A stretch of 63,286 nt of DNA from Piscinibacter caeni (GTDB taxonomy: Bacteria; Pseudomonadota; Gammaproteobacteria; Burkholderiales; Burkholderiaceae_C), in NCBI GenBank assembly GCA_003265685.1, contig QJOU01000052.1, positions 1 to 63,286 of the forward strand, in the 5' to 3' direction. Position numbers and translations under genes: made by a program. The notes beneath the pieces were generated by a model. That model was not told the DNA's origin. It did not search any database and saw nothing but the letters and a program-made list of their open reading frames with translations. Below, piece after piece: positions 5,090 to 31,624 of the stretch. How positions within the stretch are numbered: the first letter of the stretch is position 1; every line of letters begins with the position of its first letter.

Positions 5090-6433
<1,344 letters not shown>

Positions 6434-6541
6434 AGCCCTGGGGTTTCCAGGGGGGTCGCTTACGTAGTTTCCGCCATGCCTCGGCAGGGGGGGGCCACCA
6501 CAATCCGCCCCATCCCGTTGCCGCCCCGAAAGGACGCCCCG

Positions 6542-7513
6542 ATGAAGCGCTACATGCTGGCCGCGCTGGCCGCCCTCACGACCACCGCCGCGTTCGCGGA
6601 ATACCCCGAGAAGCAGATCACGATCGTCGTGCCCTTCGCCGCCGGCGGGCCCACCGACAAGGTGGCGCGCGACCTGGCCGAGGCGCTGCGCAAGCAGCTC
6701 AACAACGCCACCATCATCATCGACAACACCGGCGGCGCCGGCGGCACGCTGGGCGCCACCAAGGTGGCGCGTGCGGCCAACGACGGCTACACGCTGCTGC
6801 TGCACCACATCGGCATGGCCACCTCGCCGGCGCTGTACCGCTCGCTGCAGTACAAGACGCTGGAGGACTTCGAGTACCTCGGCATGATCAACGAGGTGCC
6901 GATGACGCTGATCGGCAAGCCCACGCTGCCGGCCAACACCTACCCCGAGCTGCTGAAGTGGCTGGAGGCGAACAAGGGCAAGATCAACCTCGCCAACGCC
7001 GGCCTGGGCGCGGCCTCGCACCTGTGCGGACTGCTGCTCCAGCAGAGCCTGAAGATCGACATGCAGACCGTGCCCTACAAGGGCACCGCCCCGGCGATGA
7101 ACGACCTGCTCGGCGGCCAGGTCGACATCATGTGCGACCAGACCACCAACACCACCGGCCAGATCGAGGCCGGCAAGGTGAAGGCCTACGCCGTGACCAC
7201 CACCAAGCGCCTGACGACCCCGGCGCTGGCCAAGCTGCCGACGCTCGACGAGAGCGGGCTGAAGGGCTTCAACGTCAGCATCTGGCACGCGCTGTACGCC
7301 CCCAAGGGCACGCCCAAGGCGGTGACCGACAAGATCAACGCCGCGCTCAAGCTCGCGCTGAAGGACCCGCAGTTCGTCAAGAACCAGGAGGCGCTCGGCG
7401 CGGTGGTGGTGAGCGACGCGCGCACCAACGGCGCCGAGCACAAGAAGTTCGTCGAGGCCGAGATCGCCAAGTGGGGCCCGGTGATCAAGGCCGCCGGTCA
7501 GTACGCCGACTGA
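6542..7513 (+). CDS. Bug-family periplasmic solute receptor (tripartite tricarboxylate transporter type)
   Basis: 323 residues with a clear signal peptide ([19 protein letters not shown], cut before EYPEK). The mature part opens with '[20 protein letters not shown]', the signature of Bug receptors, which bind small carboxylates in the periplasm; 'GGAGGTLGA' and '[15 protein letters not shown]' are also typical. The TctA/TctB membrane subunits are not nearby, which is normal for this greatly expanded betaproteobacterial family. The start at 6542 was chosen because it begins the signal peptide; the frame is open further upstream. The 3' end overlaps the convergent dtd gene by 29 bases. The substrate cannot be read from the sequence. 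Confidence 0.92.
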
Positions 7514-24036: not shown

Positions 24037-25647
<1,611 letters not shown>

Positions 25648-25778: not shown

Positions 25779-26234
25779 ATGCCCCGCCTGAACGTCAACG
25801 GCCAGACGCGCGAATTCGACGCCGAGCCCGACACCCCCCTGCTGTGGGTGCTGCGCGAGCAGCTCGGCCTGACCGGCACCAAATACGGCTGCGGCATCGC
25901 GCAATGCGGCGCCTGCACCGTGCATGTGGACGGCGTCGCCACGCGCTCCTGCGTGCGGCCGCTGTCCACGCTGACCGGGCAGGAGAAGATCGTCACCATC
26001 GAGGGCCTGTCGAGCGACGGCCGCCACCCGCTGCAGCGCGCCTGGGAGAAGCTCGACGTGCCGCAATGCGGCTTCTGCCAGTGCGGCATGCTGATGACCG
26101 CCGCCGCGCTGCTGAAGGAGAAGCCGCGCCCCAGCGATGCCGACATCGACGCCGCGATGAGCAACATCTGCCGCTGCGGCACCTACAACCGCGTGCGCGC
26201 CGCGATCAAGCTCGTGGCCGCGCAGCAGGCCTGA
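25779..26234 (+). CDS. iorA: Molybdenum hydroxylase small subunit, two [2Fe-2S] clusters (IorA type)
   Basis: 151 residues. Plant-type ferredoxin cluster ligands in '[20 protein letters not shown]' plus a later Cys ('TRSCVRPL'), and the second cluster in 'CGFCQCGM' and 'ICRCGTY'. It carries electrons from the molybdenum subunit encoded next. The family (isoquinoline 1-oxidoreductase, aldehyde oxidase) hydroxylates N-heterocycles or oxidises aldehydes. It is the first gene of a run continuing through iorB into soxXYZA. The gene symbol describes the subunit type, not a proven substrate. Confidence 0.85.
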
Positions 26235-26245
26235 GGGAGGCGGCC

Positions 26246-28423
26246 ATGAGCGACACGAACCTGCTCTCGCGCCGCGGCTTCCTCGGCGGCACGGCCGCCG
26301 TGACCGGCAGCCTGGTGGTCGGCTTCCCGGTGCCGGCGGCGCAGCCCGCCGCCGAGGTGCCGGCCGTGCCGGAGATCAACGCCTGGGTCGTGGTGCAGCC
26401 CGACGAGCGCGTGATCGTGCGCATCGCGCGCTCCGAGATGGGCCAGGGCTCGCTGACCGGCCTGGCCCAGCTCGTCGCCGAGGAGCTGGACTGCGACTGG
26501 GGCAAGGTCAGCACCGAGTACCCCACCCCCGGCCAGAACCTGGCGCGCAACCGCGTCTGGGGCAGCTTCTCCACCGGCGGCAGCCGCGGCATCCGCGATT
26601 CGCACGAGTACGTGCGCAAGGGCGGCGCGATCGCCCGCGCGATGCTCGTGCAGGCTGCGGCCGAGCAGTGGAAGGTGCCCGCCACCGAGTGCAGCACCAG
26701 CGCCGGCACGATCACGCATGGCCCCTCGGGCCGGCGCACCACCTACGGCGCGGTGGCGCCGGCGGCCGCGCGGCTCAAGCCGCCGGCGGACGTGGCGCTG
26801 AAGGACCCGAAGGCCTGGACGATCGCCGGCAAGCCGCTGCCGCGCCTGGACACGCGCGACAAGCTGACCGGCGCGCAGGTCTACGGCATGGACCTGAAGC
26901 TGCCCGGCATGCTCAACGCGGCGATCCGCGCCTGCCCGGTGTTCGGCGGCAAGCTGAAGTCCTTCGACGCCGCAGCGATCGCCAAGCGGCCGGGCGTGAA
27001 GAAGGTGGTGCGCGTGGGCGACAACGCCGTCGCCGTGGTGGCCGACACCTGGTGGCGCGCCAAGACCGCGCTCGACGCGCTGCCCGTCGAGTGGGACGAG
27101 GGCCCGCATGCGCAGGCCAGCAGCACGGCCTTCGCCGCCACGCTCAAGGCCGGGCTGGACGCGAGCGACGCGGTGGTCGGCCACAGCGCCGGCGACGCGA
27201 AGGCCGCGCTGGCCTCGGCGGCGCGGCGCATCGAGGCGGTGTACTCGTACCCGCACCAGAACCACGCGACCATGGAGACCATGAACGCGACGGCGCGCTG
27301 GACGCCCGAGCGTTGCGAGGTCTGGACACCGACGCAGAACGGCGAGGCCGCGCTGGCCGCCGCGGCCGAGGCCTCGGGCCTGAAGCCGGCGCAATGCGAG
27401 GTCTACAAGCTGCACCTGGGCGGCGGCTTCGGCCGGCGCGGTGCGGTGCACGACTGGGTGCGCCAGGCGGTGGCGATCGCGAAGGAGCTGCCGGGCACGC
27501 CGGTCAAGCTGATCTGGTCGCGCGAGGAGGACATGGTCCAGGGCCGCTACCACCCGGTGACGATGTGCAAGCTCAGTGCCGGGCTGGATGCGCAGGGCAA
27601 GCTGACCGCGCTGCACATGCGCATCTCGGGCCAGTCCATCCTCGCGGGCATCTTTCCGCAGAACATCAAGGACGGCAAGGATCCGGTGGTGTTCCAGGGC
27701 CTGAACGCGCCCGGCCCCGAGGCCTCGATCGGCTACACCGTGCCGAACCTGCTGGTCGACCACGCGATGCGCAACCCGCACGTGCCCCCGGGCTTCTGGC
27801 GCGGCGTGAACCTGAACCAGAACACGCTCTACCTGGAGTGTTTCCTCGACGAGGTGGCGCATGCGACGAAGCAGGACCCGCTCGCGCTGCGCCGCAGCCT
27901 GATGGCCGGGCACCCGAAGCACCTCGCGGTGCTGGAGGCGGTGGCGAAGAAGGTCGGCTGGGACCAGCCGGCGCCCGCCGGCGTGTTCCGCGGCCTGGCG
28001 CAGACCATGGGCTTCGGCAGCTACGTGGCCGCCTGCGCCGAGGTGTCGGTCGCCACCGACGGCACGCTGAAGATCCACCGCATCGTCGCCGCCACCGACT
28101 GCGGCCACGCCGTCAACCCGCAGCAGATCGAGGCCCAGGTCGAGGGCTCGTTCGCCTACGGGCTGTCGGCCGCGCTGTGGGGCGAGTGCACGGTCGACAA
28201 GGGCCGCATCGTGCAGACCAACTTCGACAGCTACCCGGTGATGCGCATGGACACCATGCCCAAGGTCGAGACGATCGTGATGCCCAGCGGCGGCTTCTGG
28301 GGCGGCGTGGGCGAGCCGACCATCGCGGTGGCGGCGCCGGCGGTGCTCAACGCGATCTTCGCGGCCACCGGCAAGCGCATCCGCGACCTGCCGCTCAAGC
28401 ACCACAGCCTCAAGCGCGCGTGA
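26246..28423 (+). CDS. iorB: Tat-exported molybdopterin hydroxylase large subunit (IorB type)
   Basis: 725 residues. A twin-arginine leader 'SRRGFLGGTAAVTGSL' targets it to the periplasm as a folded enzyme, together with the leaderless small subunit by hitch-hiking. Molybdenum-cofactor motifs typical of the IorB branch are present: 'SEMGQGSLTGLAQLVAEEL', 'HLGGGFGRRG', 'GFWRGVNLNQN' and the C-terminal 'GVGEPTIAVAAPAVLNAI' with the catalytic Glu. No FAD subunit follows, as usual for IorAB-type enzymes, which pass electrons to cytochrome c. Its stop overlaps the soxX start (GTGA), an unusually direct link to sulfur-oxidation genes. The substrate is unknown. Confidence 0.87.
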   Translation: MSDTNLLSRRGFLGGTAAVTGSLVVGFPVPAAQPAAEVPAVPEINAWVVVQPDERVIVRIARSEMGQGSLTGLAQLVAEELDCDWGKVSTEYPTPGQNLARNRVWGSFSTGGSRGIRDSHEYVRKGGAIARAMLVQAAAEQWKVPATECSTSAGTITHGPSGRRTTYGAVAPAAARLKPPADVALKDPKAWTIAGKPLPRLDTRDKLTGAQVYGMDLKLPGMLNAAIRACPVFGGKLKSFDAAAIAKRPGVKKVVRVGDNAVAVVADTWWRAKTALDALPVEWDEGPHAQASSTAFAATLKAGLDASDAVVGHSAGDAKAALASAARRIEAVYSYPHQNHATMETMNATARWTPERCEVWTPTQNGEAALAAAAEASGLKPAQCEVYKLHLGGGFGRRGAVHDWVRQAVAIAKELPGTPVKLIWSREEDMVQGRYHPVTMCKLSAGLDAQGKLTALHMRISGQSILAGIFPQNIKDGKDPVVFQGLNAPGPEASIGYTVPNLLVDHAMRNPHVPPGFWRGVNLNQNTLYLECFLDEVAHATKQDPLALRRSLMAGHPKHLAVLEAVAKKVGWDQPAPAGVFRGLAQTMGFGSYVAACAEVSVATDGTLKIHRIVAATDCGHAVNPQQIEAQVEGSFAYGLSAALWGECTVDKGRIVQTNFDSYPVMRMDTMPKVETIVMPSGGFWGGVGEPTIAVAAPAVLNAIFAATGKRIRDLPLKHHSLKRA

Positions 28424-28839
28424 AGCCGGCGCTGCTGGTCGTCGCCCTGCTCGGCACCGGGGCCGCCGCCGCGCCGCCGGCCTGGGAGGGCGACGCCCTG
28501 CCCACGCCGCTCACCGCCACCCCGGGCGACCCGGCCCGCGGCCGTGCGCTCGTGGCCGAGCGCCGCACCAGCCTGTGCCTGCTGTGCCACCCGGCGCCGA
28601 TCCCCGGGCAGCAGGCCGGCAACCTGGCGCCCGACCTGGCCGGCGCCGGTGCGCGCTGGAGCGCCGCGCAGCTGCGGGCCCGCATCGTCGACGCGCGGCG
28701 CCTGAACCCGGCCACCACCATGCCGCCCTTCCACGCCAACGAGGGGCTGCAGCGCGTGGGCAGCGCCTGGCAGGGCCGACCGGTGCTCGAGGCGCAGCAG
28801 GTCGAGGACATCGTGGCCTGGCTGCAGACATTGCGTTGA
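28420..28839 (+). CDS. soxX: Sulfur oxidation c-type cytochrome SoxX
   Basis: 139 residues from a GTG at 28420 that overlaps the iorB stop. A cleavable signal peptide (to about residue 18, GAAAAPP) precedes one haem-binding motif, Cys53-Leu-Leu-Cys56-His57. 'LAPDLAGAGARWSAAQLRAR' and 'IVDARRLNPATTMPPFH' are typical SoxX, with the Met of 'TTMPP' as likely axial ligand. SoxX pairs with SoxA to attach thiosulfate oxidatively to the SoxY cysteine. The alternative reading, a generic cytochrome c serving IorAB, is less likely because soxYZA follow directly. Confidence 0.88.
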   Translation: MKPALLVVALLGTGAAAAPPAWEGDALPTPLTATPGDPARGRALVAERRTSLCLLCHPAPIPGQQAGNLAPDLAGAGARWSAAQLRARIVDARRLNPATTMPPFHANEGLQRVGSAWQGRPVLEAQQVEDIVAWLQTLR

Positions 28840-28846
28840 CGTTGCG

Positions 28847-29281
28847 ATGACCTTGCCACGACGCCACCTGCTGATCGCCGCCGGCGCCGCGGTGTGCCTG
28901 CGCCCGGCGCGCGCGACGCCGCTCGAGATGGAGCTGGCGATCGCCGCCTTCACCGGCGGCGCGCCGCTGCGCGAGGGCCGCGTGACGCTGGAGATCGCGC
29001 CGCTGGTGGAAAACGGCAACGCGGTGCCGGTCGGCCTCGGCGTCGAGGAGGCGCTCGCCCCCGGCGCGGTGCGCGCGCTGGCGCTGTTCACGCCGGGCAA
29101 CCCGCAGCCCGGCGTGATCGTCGCGCGCTTCGGCCCGCGCAGCGGCCGCGCCCGGCTCGACACGCGCATGCGCCTGGCCAGCTCGCAGACCGTGGTCGCG
29201 CTGGCGCAGTTCGCCGACGGCAGCTGCTGGCGCCGCAGCGCCGAGGTGGTGGTGACGCTGGCCGCCTGCGTGGAAGGTTGA
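28847..29281 (+). CDS. soxY: Sulfur carrier protein SoxY with atypical C-terminus
   Basis: 144 residues. A Tat-like leader ('PRRHLLIAAGAAVCL') is followed by the SoxY beta-sandwich: 'LVENGNAVPVGLGVEEAL' and 'RLASSQTVVALAQFADGSCW'. The carrier cysteine sits near the end (Cys141 in 'TLAACVEG'), but the canonical swinging arm ends GGCGG; here the cysteine is flanked by Ala-Ala and Val-Glu-Gly. It forms a heterodimer with SoxZ, encoded 4 bases later. The change may affect which enzymes can dock on the arm. Confidence 0.87.
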   Translation: MTLPRRHLLIAAGAAVCLRPARATPLEMELAIAAFTGGAPLREGRVTLEIAPLVENGNAVPVGLGVEEALAPGAVRALALFTPGNPQPGVIVARFGPRSGRARLDTRMRLASSQTVVALAQFADGSCWRRSAEVVVTLAACVEG

Positions 29282-29285
29282 CGCC

Positions 29286-29612
29286 ATGGCGACCCGCGCG
29301 ATCGTCACCCTGCCGCCGCCGGCCCGCCCGGGCGAGGTGGTCGAGCTGCGCGTGCTGGTCAGCCACCCGATGGAAACCGGCTACCGGCGCGACGCCGACG
29401 GGCGCATGCTGCCGCGCGACCTGATCCGGCGCTTCCGCTGCCGCTGCGACGGCGAGACCGTGATCGAGGCCGAGCTGCACGCGGCCATCGCCGCCAACCC
29501 CTACCTGGCCTTCTGGCTGCAGGTGGGCGAAGGCCCCGGCCTGCTCGAGTTCGAGTGGGAGGGCGACAACGGCTTCGTGCACCAGGAACGGCGCACGCTG
29601 CTGCGCAGATGA
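29286..29612 (+). CDS. soxZ: Sulfur carrier partner SoxZ
   Basis: 108 residues, no signal peptide, so exported with SoxY. Typical sequences are 'RVLVSHPMETGYRRDADGR', 'IRRFRCRCDGETVIEAEL' and 'NPYLAFWLQVGEGPGLLEF'. Its stop codon forms the first of four ATGA junctions that run through an 11-bp tandem repeat to the soxA start. Confidence 0.92.
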   Translation: MATRAIVTLPPPARPGEVVELRVLVSHPMETGYRRDADGRMLPRDLIRRFRCRCDGETVIEAELHAAIAANPYLAFWLQVGEGPGLLEFEWEGDNGFVHQERRTLLRR

Positions 29613-29651
29613 GGCGCGGATGAGGCGCGGATGAGGCGCGGATGAAGTGCG
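29608..29651 (+). repeat. 11-bp tandem repeat forming a chain of ATGA junctions between soxZ and soxA
   Basis: Three perfect copies of gatgaggcgcg (29608-29618, 29619-29629, 29630-29640) and a diverged fourth copy, gatgaagtgcg, that contains the soxA start. Each copy supplies an ATG whose four-codon frame (Met-Arg-Arg-Gly) ends at a TGA overlapping the next ATG. The soxZ stop and the soxA start are the outer links of this chain. Confidence 0.9.
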
Positions 29652-30406
29652 TGCAAGCCGCGCTGCTGATCGCCGCCTTGCTGGCCGGCTGCGCCCTGCC
29701 GGACGCTGCGCCGCGGCGCAGCGGCTTCGACGACATGAGCCCCGCACTGCAGGCGCTGCAGCGCGACGACGCCCAGAACCCGGGCCTGCTGGCGGTGCTG
29801 GAGGGCGCGGCGCTGTGGGACCAGCCGGCCGGGCCGCAGGGGCAGCGCTGCAGCGGCTGCCACGGCGATGCGGCGGCCACGATGCGCGGCGTGGCCGCGC
29901 GTCACCCGCGCTTCGACGCGGCGAGCGGCCGGCCCGTCTCGCTCGGCCAGCGCATCGCGGCCTGCCGCGTGCGCCAGGGCCTGCAGCGGCCCGGCCCGGA
30001 GGACGGCGCCCGGCTCGCGCTCGAGGCCTACGTGGCGCACCAGTCGCGCGGCCTGCCGATCGAACCCGACCCCGACCCGCGCCTGGCCCCCTGGCGCGAA
30101 CGCGGCCGCGCCCTCTACGGGCAACGCATCGGCCAGCTCAACCTCGCCTGCACGCAGTGCCACGACGGCCTGGCCGGCAAGCGCCTTGGCGGCAGCACCA
30201 TCCCGCAGGGCCACCCGACCGGCTACCCGGTCTACCGGCTCGAATGGCAGGCGCCCGGCTCGCTGCAGCGGCGCCTGCGCGGCTGCCTGGCCGGCGTGCG
30301 CGCCGAGCCGTTTGCGCCCGATGCGCCGGAATGGGTCGAGCTCGAGCTGCACCTGATGCAGCGCGCCGCCGGCATGCCGCTGGAGACACCCGCGGTTCGG
30401 CCTTGA
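29642..30406 (+). CDS. soxA: Sulfur oxidation dihaem cytochrome SoxA
   Basis: 254 residues. N-terminal signal with a possible lipobox ('LLAGC', Cys17). Two haem motifs: Cys70-Ser-Gly-Cys73-His74 and Cys170-Thr-Gln-Cys173-His174. The active-site cysteine that ligates one haem is Cys215 in 'RLRGCLAGVRAEPF', the conserved SoxA pattern. With SoxX it joins thiosulfate to SoxY. No soxB, soxC or soxD follows; the next gene is convergent and begins one base after the stop. A lipid anchor, if real, would fix SoxAX to a membrane. Confidence 0.9.
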   Translation: MKCVQAALLIAALLAGCALPDAAPRRSGFDDMSPALQALQRDDAQNPGLLAVLEGAALWDQPAGPQGQRCSGCHGDAAATMRGVAARHPRFDAASGRPVSLGQRIAACRVRQGLQRPGPEDGARLALEAYVAHQSRGLPIEPDPDPRLAPWRERGRALYGQRIGQLNLACTQCHDGLAGKRLGGSTIPQGHPTGYPVYRLEWQAPGSLQRRLRGCLAGVRAEPFAPDAPEWVELELHLMQRAAGMPLETPAVRP

Positions 30407-31624
30407 TCAGCGCTTGAGCACCTTGGGCACCGGGTTCGGTCGCAGGCGGTAAGCGTCGGGCATGCCCGAGCCGAGCAGCGGGCGCAGGTAGAGGCGGAAG
30501 GCGTCGGTCACGTCGGTGCCGGAGTCGCTGATGAACGCGTCGTCCATCGTGCGCGTCTTGCCGGCCACCGTCTCCAGCGGCACCAGCTCGTAGTCGGCCG
30601 AGTAGTAGCCGGTGCGCTTGATCGCCACCGAGCCGTCGCGGTCGCCCCACATGGCGTACTGCACCGCCTTCTCGCCGACCTCGCGCGCCTCGCGCTGGTC
30701 GACGTCGCTGACGCAACCGATGAACGAGCGCTGCAGGTAGCCGAAGGTGTCGCCGCGCACGCGCTTGATACCGAGCTTCTCCTTGATCTCCTCGCACAGC
30801 AGGTCGGCCAGCGCGCCCGTGCCGGAAAGCTGCACGTTGCCGTGGGCGTCGTGCTCCAGGTCCTTGGCGAGCTGCGCGGCGATCGCCTGGCCGCTCGCGT
30901 CGTGGATGCCTTCGGAGACCGCGATCACGCAGCGCCCGTAACGCTCGTACATGGTCTTCACGTCGGCCAGGAACCTCGGCAGCTCGAAGGTGCGCTCGGG
31001 CAGGTAGATCAGGTGCGGGCCGTCGTCCGGGAACTTCTTGCCCAGCGCCGAGGCGGCGGTCAGGAAGCCGGCGTGGCGGCCCATCACCACCGCCACGTAG
31101 ACGCCGGGCAGCGCGGCGTTGTCGAGGTTCGCGCCGGCGAAGGCCTGGGCGACGAAGCGTGCGGCGGAGGGGAAGCCGGGCGTGTGGTCGTTGCCGACCA
31201 GGTCGTTGTCGATCGTCTTCGGAATGTGGATCGAGCGCAGCGGGTAGCCGGCCTTCTTCGCCTCCTCGCTGACGATGCGCACTGTGTCGGAGGAGTCGTT
31301 GCCGCCGATGTAGAAGAAGTGCCCGATCTCGTGCGCCTGCAGCACCTTGAAGATCTCCTGGCAGTACTTCAGGTCGGGCTTGTCGCGCGTCGAGCCCAAC
31401 GCCGAGGCCGGCGTGCCGGCCACCAGCTCGAGGTTGTGGCTGGTCTCCTGCGTGAGGTCGACGAAATCCTCGTTGACGATGCCGCGCACGCCGTGGTGCG
31501 CACCGTACACCTGCCGGACCTCGCGGAAGCGCCGCGCCTCCAGCACCACGCCGACGAGCGACTGGTTGATCACTGCGGTCGGTCCGCCGCCTTGCGCGAC
31601 GAGGATCTTGCCGGATGGCTGCAT
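30407..31624 (-). CDS. 6-phosphofructokinase, probably PPi-dependent type
   Basis: 405 residues; phosphorylates fructose 6-phosphate. The phosphoryl-donor loop reads 'FYIGGNDSSDTVRIV': where ATP enzymes have GGDGS there is an Asp after GGN, the substitution that normally blocks ATP and marks PPi enzymes. 'PKTIDNDLVGNDHTPGF' and 'VVMGRHAGFLT' are typical of PPi-PFK. The first Asp of the usual GGD is Asn here. ATG at 31624 has a GGAGGA site; the frame is open upstream without support. A reversible PPi enzyme would suit autotrophic or gluconeogenic growth (inference). Confidence 0.88.
   Translation of the reverse strand: MQPSGKILVAQGGGPTAVINQSLVGVVLEARRFREVRQVYGAHHGVRGIVNEDFVDLTQETSHNLELVAGTPASALGSTRDKPDLKYCQEIFKVLQAHEIGHFFYIGGNDSSDTVRIVSEEAKKAGYPLRSIHIPKTIDNDLVGNDHTPGFPSAARFVAQAFAGANLDNAALPGVYVAVVMGRHAGFLTAASALGKKFPDDGPHLIYLPERTFELPRFLADVKTMYERYGRCVIAVSEGIHDASGQAIAAQLAKDLEHDAHGNVQLSGTGALADLLCEEIKEKLGIKRVRGDTFGYLQRSFIGCVSDVDQREAREVGEKAVQYAMWGDRDGSVAIKRTGYYSADYELVPLETVAGKTRTMDDAFISDSGTDVTDAFRLYLRPLLGSGMPDAYRLRPNPVPKVLKR

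Follow-up and report, generated by a model that had tools for sequence, protein, structure and literature searches.

A recurrent iorAB-soxXYZA gene set with an AAC-arm SoxY points to a Sox module that need not have SoxB

We analyzed a 63,286-nucleotide stretch of the Piscinibacter caeni genome (contig QJOU01000052.1, positions 1 to 63,286; hereafter, the window), in which two genes for a molybdenum (Mo) hydroxylase, iorA and iorB, stand directly before soxX, soxY, soxZ, and soxA. Direct reading of the sequence placed all six genes on the + strand between positions 25779 and 30406, with spacings, from iorA to soxA, of 11, -4, 7, 4, and 29 bases. A first-pass annotation had described this close packing, together with a repeat between soxZ and soxA, and both were confirmed. 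The repeat consists of three copies of the 11-base GATGAGGCGCG at 29608-29640, spanning the soxZ stop and the soxZ-soxA gap. The negative spacing is a four-base overlap, GTGA, of the iorB stop with the GTG start of soxX, also as first described, and makes translational linkage of the two genes plausible. Among the 34 fetched loci where iorB and soxX are direct neighbors, the two genes overlap in 7 and lie within 30 bases of each other (overlaps included) in 23, going by their predicted starts. The cassette contains no soxB, in agreement with the first-pass annotation, and soxCD are likewise missing from it.

The iorA gene (25779-26234) encodes the 151-amino-acid small [2Fe-2S] subunit of a xanthine oxidase-family Mo hydroxylase (Fer2_2, 95.3 bits; Fer2, 41.8 bits), and iorB (26246-28423) encodes the 725-amino-acid large Mo-binding subunit (MoCoBD_1, 117.9 bits; MoCoBD_2, 111.5 bits). 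The nearest solved chain to IorB is 8gy3_C, "large subunit of aldehyde dehydrogenase," which it matches over residues 2 to 724 at 245.3 bits. SoxX (28420-28839; 139 amino acids) is a c-type cytochrome (TIGR04485, 73.9 bits; cutoff, 61), SoxY (28847-29281; 144 amino acids) is recognized by the Pfam SoxY model (83.9 bits; cutoff, 28.4), and its partner SoxZ (29286-29612; 108 amino acids) scores 87.6 bits with Pfam SoxZ and 74.4 bits with TIGR04490, 1.6 bits short of the cutoff of 76. The last gene, soxA (29642-30406; 254 amino acids), encodes a diheme cytochrome with a cysteine heme ligand (TIGR04484, 198 bits; cutoff, 110) whose nearest solved chain is 1h31_A (146.3 bits). Twin-arginine translocation (Tat) leaders had been proposed for both IorB and SoxY. 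The Tat signal model matched IorB at 20.2 bits, above its cutoff of 16.7, and listed no match for SoxY, where the N-terminal PRRHLL suggests a leader by eye only.

The first-pass annotation overlooked that the SoxY of the window is not a GGCGG SoxY. Its C terminus reads LAACVEG, in which the GGCGG arm is missing and the carrier cysteine is retained. The best family for this protein is NCBIfam TIGR04487, "SoxY-related AACIE arm protein," with which it shares the AAC arm and in which it scores 163.6 bits, below the cutoff of 172; the GGCGG model TIGR04488 gives 72.5 bits, versus a cutoff of 125. The TIGR04487 score alone is unspecific, as GGCGG carriers reach 144 bits, and arms were therefore read individually. 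The arm cysteine was present in all 48 translated relatives, the GGCGG control L144 being excluded, and was preceded by alanine in 46 and by glycine in 2. Ala140 and Cys141 were invariant in an alignment of 31 SoxY sequences (A1; 31/31), and two relatives outside this alignment have an AGC arm. Arms in the 34 fetched same-family carriers besides the window were AAC, AGC, or SAC, and 25 of 200 same-family genomes contained a TIGR04487 copy scoring above 172 bits. At the level of sequence, these comparisons demonstrate a separate type of carrier, in which AAC replaces GGC in the arm. Two other SoxY relatives beside soxZ (L093 and L094) have a displaced cysteine, their arms ending in GGAGGCG and GGAGACG.

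The recurrence of the gene set was evaluated in 200 genomes of the same family, a carrier being defined by a TIGR04487-type SoxY of at least 100 bits. Thirty-five genomes, that of the window included, were carriers. All six genes lay together and in order in 28 of the 34 fetched carriers, or in 29 of 35 counting the window. The exceptions were a locus that had lost soxX and most of soxA (L059, genome G197), one with soxXYZA and no iorAB (L064), one with soxYZA and neither soxX nor iorAB (L080), one with iorAB-soxYZ (L081, genome G184), and two that reach the contig end (L071 and L082). At L064, the AGC-arm soxXYZA (5143-7162) lies downstream of a gene that resembles recJ by eye, with iorAB not nearby. 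The four best SoxY matches below 100 bits (82 to 88 bits; L085-L088) were without iorAB and were left out of the counts.

The set was also found outside this family. Among 129 fetched loci, 75 were arranged as iorAB-fccB-soxXYZA, 33 as iorAB-soxXYZA, 7 as iorAB-fccA-fccB-soxXYZA, and 14 in other ways; one of the 129 is the GGCGG control, not all are independent, and fccA is undercounted, having been found only via a diverged query. The six genes recur in one genus of the window's order with genomes of 1.7 to 2.1 Mb (L134, L135, L137, and L141) and at L140. Bradyrhizobium has iorAB-fccB-soxXYZA, in some cases with a detected fccA (L130-L133 and L145-L224), and accounted for 76 of the best 80 of at least 540 confirmed relatives in a profile search with a 10-sequence alignment (A2). 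In family f225, 45 of 101 genomes carry an AAC-type SoxY. All 45 loci were fetched, and the arm was AAC in each; 41 have the order iorA-iorB-fccA-fccB-soxX-soxY-soxZ-soxA, and the other four lie on short contigs, with the upstream genes missing. Plasmid copies in Neorhizobium galegae and Methylobacterium sp. NMS14P have soxX, soxZ, soxA, and Mo-enzyme genes beside a SoxY annotated as an AACIE arm protein. The iorB-soxX junction, or the set with an fccB or fccAB insertion at this point, thus recurs in most fetched loci. Chance adjacency of iorAB and the sox genes was rejected because the set recurs across fetched loci and families, and gene order across these genomes demonstrates that it recurs as a unit.

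The fccB product is predicted to be the flavoprotein of a flavocytochrome c sulfide dehydrogenase. FccB of relatives matched the sulfide dehydrogenase 5n1t_A at 495.2 bits, and two relatives scored 164.7 and 156.5 bits with FCSD_central and 68.9 and 86.0 bits with FCSD-flav_bind. The cysteines of CPPGPYER and TCYSL, presumably the redox cysteines, can be seen when the sequence is aligned with 5n1t.

The possibility that a larger operon discloses the substrate was considered and rejected. When the flanks of 68 chosen loci were clustered, the 40 widest clusters reflected mainly synteny within Bradyrhizobium or among related Burkholderiales. Clusters spanning lineages held 5 or 6 of the 68 loci and comprised, by eye, an ABC transporter ATPase, a Crp-like regulator, and a dihydrolipoamide dehydrogenase-like protein. 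By this measure, no gene beyond the cassette appears to be general across lineages. The flanking genes of the window, an alpha-amylase-type gene upstream (24037-25647, + strand) and a convergent pyrophosphate-dependent phosphofructokinase gene downstream (30407-31624, - strand), do not look like parts of the unit.

The ratio of nonsynonymous to synonymous substitution rates (dN/dS) was at most 0.36 in 45 of 48 comparisons, covering eight locus pairs and six genes; the other three were incomputable, their synonymous sites being saturated. Genomes lacking SoxB supplied three of the eight pairs (L078/L079, L083/L084, and L138/L139). These ratios indicate that the cassette genes are under purifying selection. 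Active-site residues are retained as well. Cysteines 38, 43, 46, 58, 97, 100, 131, and 133 of IorA are identical in all 46 aligned sequences, window included, and so is the IorB glutamate of GVGE (46/46), which we take to be catalytic. The GGGFG motif of IorB is kept except for one F-to-L change, and a simple Tat-like pattern was seen in 29 of 45 IorB starts, many of which are only predicted. By these residues, the Mo enzyme retains a hydroxylase active site.

The same is true of the two cytochromes. SoxX keeps its CxxCH and the methionine of TTMPP in 46 of 46 sequences, and the two CxxCH motifs, Cys215, Arg211, and Arg199 of SoxA are identical in all 46 cassette loci, window included. Thiosulfate conjugation has been tied to the SoxA/TsdA active site, including TsdA Arg119 and SoxA Arg232 (PMC4423706). 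Arg199 was paired with Arg232 of R. sulfidophilum by reading the 1h31_A alignment together with that paper. In these residues, SoxXA retains what is recognizable as a thiosulfate-type conjugation site.

SoxB was scored as present at E values up to 1e-100. It was found in 112 of the 200 same-family genomes and in 26 of the 35 AAC carriers among them; the nine carriers without it are 96 to 100% complete. In family f225, SoxB was found in none of 101 genomes, 45 of them AAC SoxY carriers, with the same model that matched 112 of 200 and 30 of 36 in the other sets. The set of 36 consisted of 34 genomes and two plasmid records; SoxB was present in 30 of the 34 genomes, and the four without it are members of f225. 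A SoxA search in 13 SoxB-less genomes found exactly one, at the cassette, in 11 of them, two in G011, and none in G197. Judging from these genome contents, SoxB is dispensable for carriage of the cassette. The conserved gene set, the many carriers in which SoxB was not found, and the purifying selection together argue for a distinct module that does not require SoxB. To this extent the variant pathway proposed in the first-pass annotation gained support, and the roles it gave to the Mo enzyme and SoxAX stand as suggestions.

A SoxB-free state of the window's own genome was rejected, since soxB is present on contig C32. The minus strand of this contig carries a canonical cluster, soxCDYZAXB, with soxC (590.2 bits), soxD (assigned by position and heme motifs; no NCBIfam match), soxY (159.3 bits in the GGCGG model, with a GGCGG end), soxZ (assigned by sequence and place, unscored), soxA (237.3 bits), soxX (85.2 bits), and soxB (867.3 bits). 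The plain alternative raised in the first-pass annotation, that soxB lies elsewhere, is thus correct for this genome. The annotation had also named a full second cluster with soxB and soxCD, combined with loss of the iorB-soxX junction in relatives, as evidence that would count against its proposal; the cluster is there on C32, and the junction is kept. The canonical SoxA on C32 (L003 4692-5486, - strand) has lost its first CxxCH, the cassette SoxA has two, and the genome therefore contains two SoxA types. Two fused SoxYZ-like open reading frames of the quinoprotein-dehydrogenase type lie on contig C1 (182670-187070; L089 6670-11067, - strand), one of them scored (TIGR04557, 227.9 bits), accompanied by what look by eye like a SoxH-like zinc hydrolase and a beta-propeller-like protein. 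On this evidence, the fused carriers on C1 would be the third Sox-like carrier system of the genome.

The history of the set was read from a tree of 62 IorB sequences, in which sox-linked IorB and four sox-free plasmid IorB form one clade, with support of 100/100 without L081 and 100/98 with it; the bootstrap is not settled, and several branches are long. The sox-free IorB, from plasmids of Sinorhizobium, Rhizobium, and Agrobacterium (L225-L228), nest inside the sox-linked clade, which reads as losses of sox. No matches to SoxX, SoxY, SoxZ, or SoxA were found at these four loci, and a class I cytochrome c lies near IorAB in all four. A sorbosone dehydrogenase-like gene follows at the Sinorhizobium medicae locus and an XdhC gene at the Agrobacterium locus; one sox-free locus has XdhC and an NTP transferase.

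The arrangement at L081 raised the alternative that iorAB-soxYZ, with L081 sister to the rest, is an ancestral core without soxXA. This was rejected: genomes G184, which contains L081, and G1108 are related and carry a diverged form of the cassette, and the six genes are complete in G1108, so L081 looks like a loss. The locus of G1115, a sister species of the window in the same genus, is 94% identical to that of the window up to about position 29599, and the two diverge just before the triple repeat. The six-gene set is thus probably old, and parts of it disappeared afterward, namely soxXA from G197 and from the G184 locus and soxA from the G1115 locus. All loci were found through SoxY, and losses of SoxY are therefore invisible in these counts. 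Beyond the divergence point, G1115 has a convergent gene resembling, by eye, a PAS-type histidine kinase. On the reverse strand at L081, a ModA-like binding protein and a second Mo hydroxylase (by eye, with a weak IorB match) precede iorAB-soxYZ, and a 303-amino-acid protein follows; in G1108 (L275), the ModA-like gene and the gene that follows the set at L081 lie about 3 kb downstream of the full cassette.

A related locus has been described in Starkeya novella as a "second sox cluster," soxX2Y2Z2A2F2 (Snov_1982-1977), with a xanthine oxidase-family Mo enzyme (Snov_1975/1976); it showed very little expression during growth with glucose, methanol, or thiosulfate, and its function was left open (PMC3797975). 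Its content is that of the alphaproteobacterial form of the cassette, namely SoxXYZA, flavocytochrome c, and the Mo enzyme without SoxB or SoxCD in the cluster, whereas its gene order differs by locus numbers, and the account we drew on treats it as a single locus of doubtful function rather than as a recurring module. We found no other printed account of such a locus in the open-access literature searched, and no paper there using the terms "SoxY-related" or "AACIE arm." In Bradyrhizobium diazoefficiens, thiosulfate oxidation needs soxY1 and not soxY2 (PMC5748708, citing earlier work). A strain of this species is among the carriers (L216), and soxY2 is likely its AAC gene. A flavocytochrome c beside SoxYZ and a proposed nonconventional mechanism have also been reported for SAR324 (PMC4782131); there, in contrast to the cassette, no further sox subunits were recovered, and isoquinoline 1-oxidoreductase is mentioned with no link to SoxYZ seen in the part of that report used here. 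A "GGC" motif was required of the sequences kept in a 2024 SoxY survey (PMC11237559), a filter by which carriers with AAC-type arms would be dropped.

The cassette resembles the canonical SoxXAYZBCD system in its SoxX, SoxA, SoxY, and SoxZ homologs, the SoxA cysteine heme ligand, the conserved arginines, and the carrier cysteine on a C-terminal arm. It differs in the absence of SoxB and SoxCD, in having an AAC rather than a GGCGG arm, and in the xanthine oxidase-family Mo hydroxylase in the operon. With IorAB-type Mo hydroxylases and the 8gy3 aldehyde dehydrogenase it shares a two-subunit, Tat-exported [2Fe-2S] and Mo enzyme with the GVGE glutamate; unlike in those enzymes, the hydroxylase is joined to a sulfur carrier system, and the adjoining cytochromes are SoxX and SoxA. 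What this analysis adds is a module that is widespread, with a distinct conserved arm, a stable gene content with optional FccAB, and a whole family in which SoxB was not found.

The cassette probably does a different job from thiosulfate oxidation. In the reading we prefer, to which we give a probability of about 0.4, it is one periplasmic oxidation module, separate from thiosulfate-oxidizing Sox. SoxXA would load the arm cysteine of SoxY, through a disulfide bond, with a small sulfur compound that is either an organic thiol or thiosulfate. Oxidation of its carbon portion would fall to IorAB, which most likely acts on aldehydes or activated carbon, whether the compound is still attached to the arm or has been released. 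The sulfur remaining on SoxY would be removed without SoxB-type sulfonate hydrolysis, in alphaproteobacteria by the cassette-encoded FccAB, and electrons would exit via c-type cytochromes. A sulfur substrate is argued from the SoxXA conjugation site and the alphaproteobacterial sulfide dehydrogenase, and carbon oxidation from the Mo hydroxylase, to which an aldehyde dehydrogenase is the closest solved structure; both the AAC arm and the lack of SoxB speak against the usual thiosulfate cycle. The conjugation site, the Mo hydroxylase, and the AAC and SoxB-free traits would all be accommodated if the substrate were an organic sulfur compound. A more specific version, in which IorAB hydroxylates the carbon next to the sulfur of an arm-tethered thiol loaded by SoxXA and frees an aldehyde or acid, with FccAB clearing the SoxY persulfide, we consider unlikely; if true, such arm-tethered opening of C-S bonds would amount to a Sox route for organic sulfur that dispenses with SoxB.

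Several observations weigh against the preferred reading of a single, separate module. AAC SoxY and SoxB co-occur in the window's family (26/35 versus 86/165; odds ratio, 2.65; P = 0.02, uncorrected for kinship), a positive association that speaks against full independence. The sox-free relatives are 61 to 69% identical to IorB, which suggests that IorAB is able to function with no SoxYZ. The set is also incomplete in places: the G184 locus has neither soxX nor soxA, in a genome with two SoxA elsewhere; G197 has lost soxX and the greater part of soxA; no soxA stands at the G1115 locus; and in G074 and G083 the carrier has no iorAB beside it. FccAB is missing from the cassette in the window's family. 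Finally, soxY2 and the S. novella cluster are equated with the cassette by gene content and genus only.

IorAB might instead be an ordinary periplasmic aldehyde or heterocycle oxidase, with SoxX or SoxXA serving only as its cytochrome c acceptor and SoxYZ with SoxXA running a separate sulfur reaction. The aldehyde dehydrogenase large subunit as the nearest structure to IorB favors this arrangement, as do the nested sox-free IorAB, beside a small cytochrome c at 4 of 4 loci and, in S. medicae, also beside the sorbosone dehydrogenase-like gene. It predicts that soxYZ would be lost before soxXA; G197 and the G184 locus show the reverse, in a sample that, being found through SoxY, is biased to keep SoxY. 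On balance, we regard it as rather unlikely. Another use of SoxYZ and SoxXA would be to serve the Mo enzyme, as a thiol or persulfide relay maintaining the IorAB cysteines, hemes, or Mo sulfido ligand. Fused SoxYZ-like carriers (TIGR04557) do recur beside pyrroloquinoline quinone-dependent alcohol dehydrogenases (PMC12997753), the two open reading frames on C1 being of this kind. Since the sox-free IorAB relatives apparently manage without such help and a sulfide dehydrogenase in the cassette better matches sulfur from a substrate, a maintenance role seems improbable.

The AAC carrier could also feed canonical SoxB and SoxCD as an accessory to thiosulfate oxidation. SoxB is present in the window's genome, in 25 of 34 other same-family carriers, and in 30 of 30 tested genomes outside f225 (16 of Bradyrhizobium type and others), and SoxXA has a thiosulfate-type site. 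Against this stand the 0 of 101 f225 genomes and the 9 of 35 same-family carriers in which SoxB was not found, despite purifying selection, and the arm without the GGCGG glycines; moreover, B. diazoefficiens is reported to oxidize thiosulfate without a need for soxY2 (PMC5748708), and the S. novella cluster is barely expressed on thiosulfate (PMC3797975). We hold an accessory role to be quite doubtful. A relic of duplicated, functionless sox genes, as suggested for S. novella, would be in keeping with the very low expression there under the conditions tested (PMC3797975) and with the partial losses in some genomes. It is very hard to reconcile with dN/dS values of no more than 0.36 in all computable comparisons, with the catalytic residues kept, and with a spread over Burkholderiales, Bradyrhizobium, and at least one further family, and we judge it highly improbable.

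The presence of sox genes is widely taken to indicate thiosulfate oxidation, and the SoxXYZA set described here very likely does something else. It spans Bradyrhizobium, a genus of small genomes in the window's order, and a family in which SoxB was not found. If the substrate is organic sulfur, the module would give the sulfur cycle a new entry point in the periplasm; if it is not, the Sox carrier arm would still have been put to another use.

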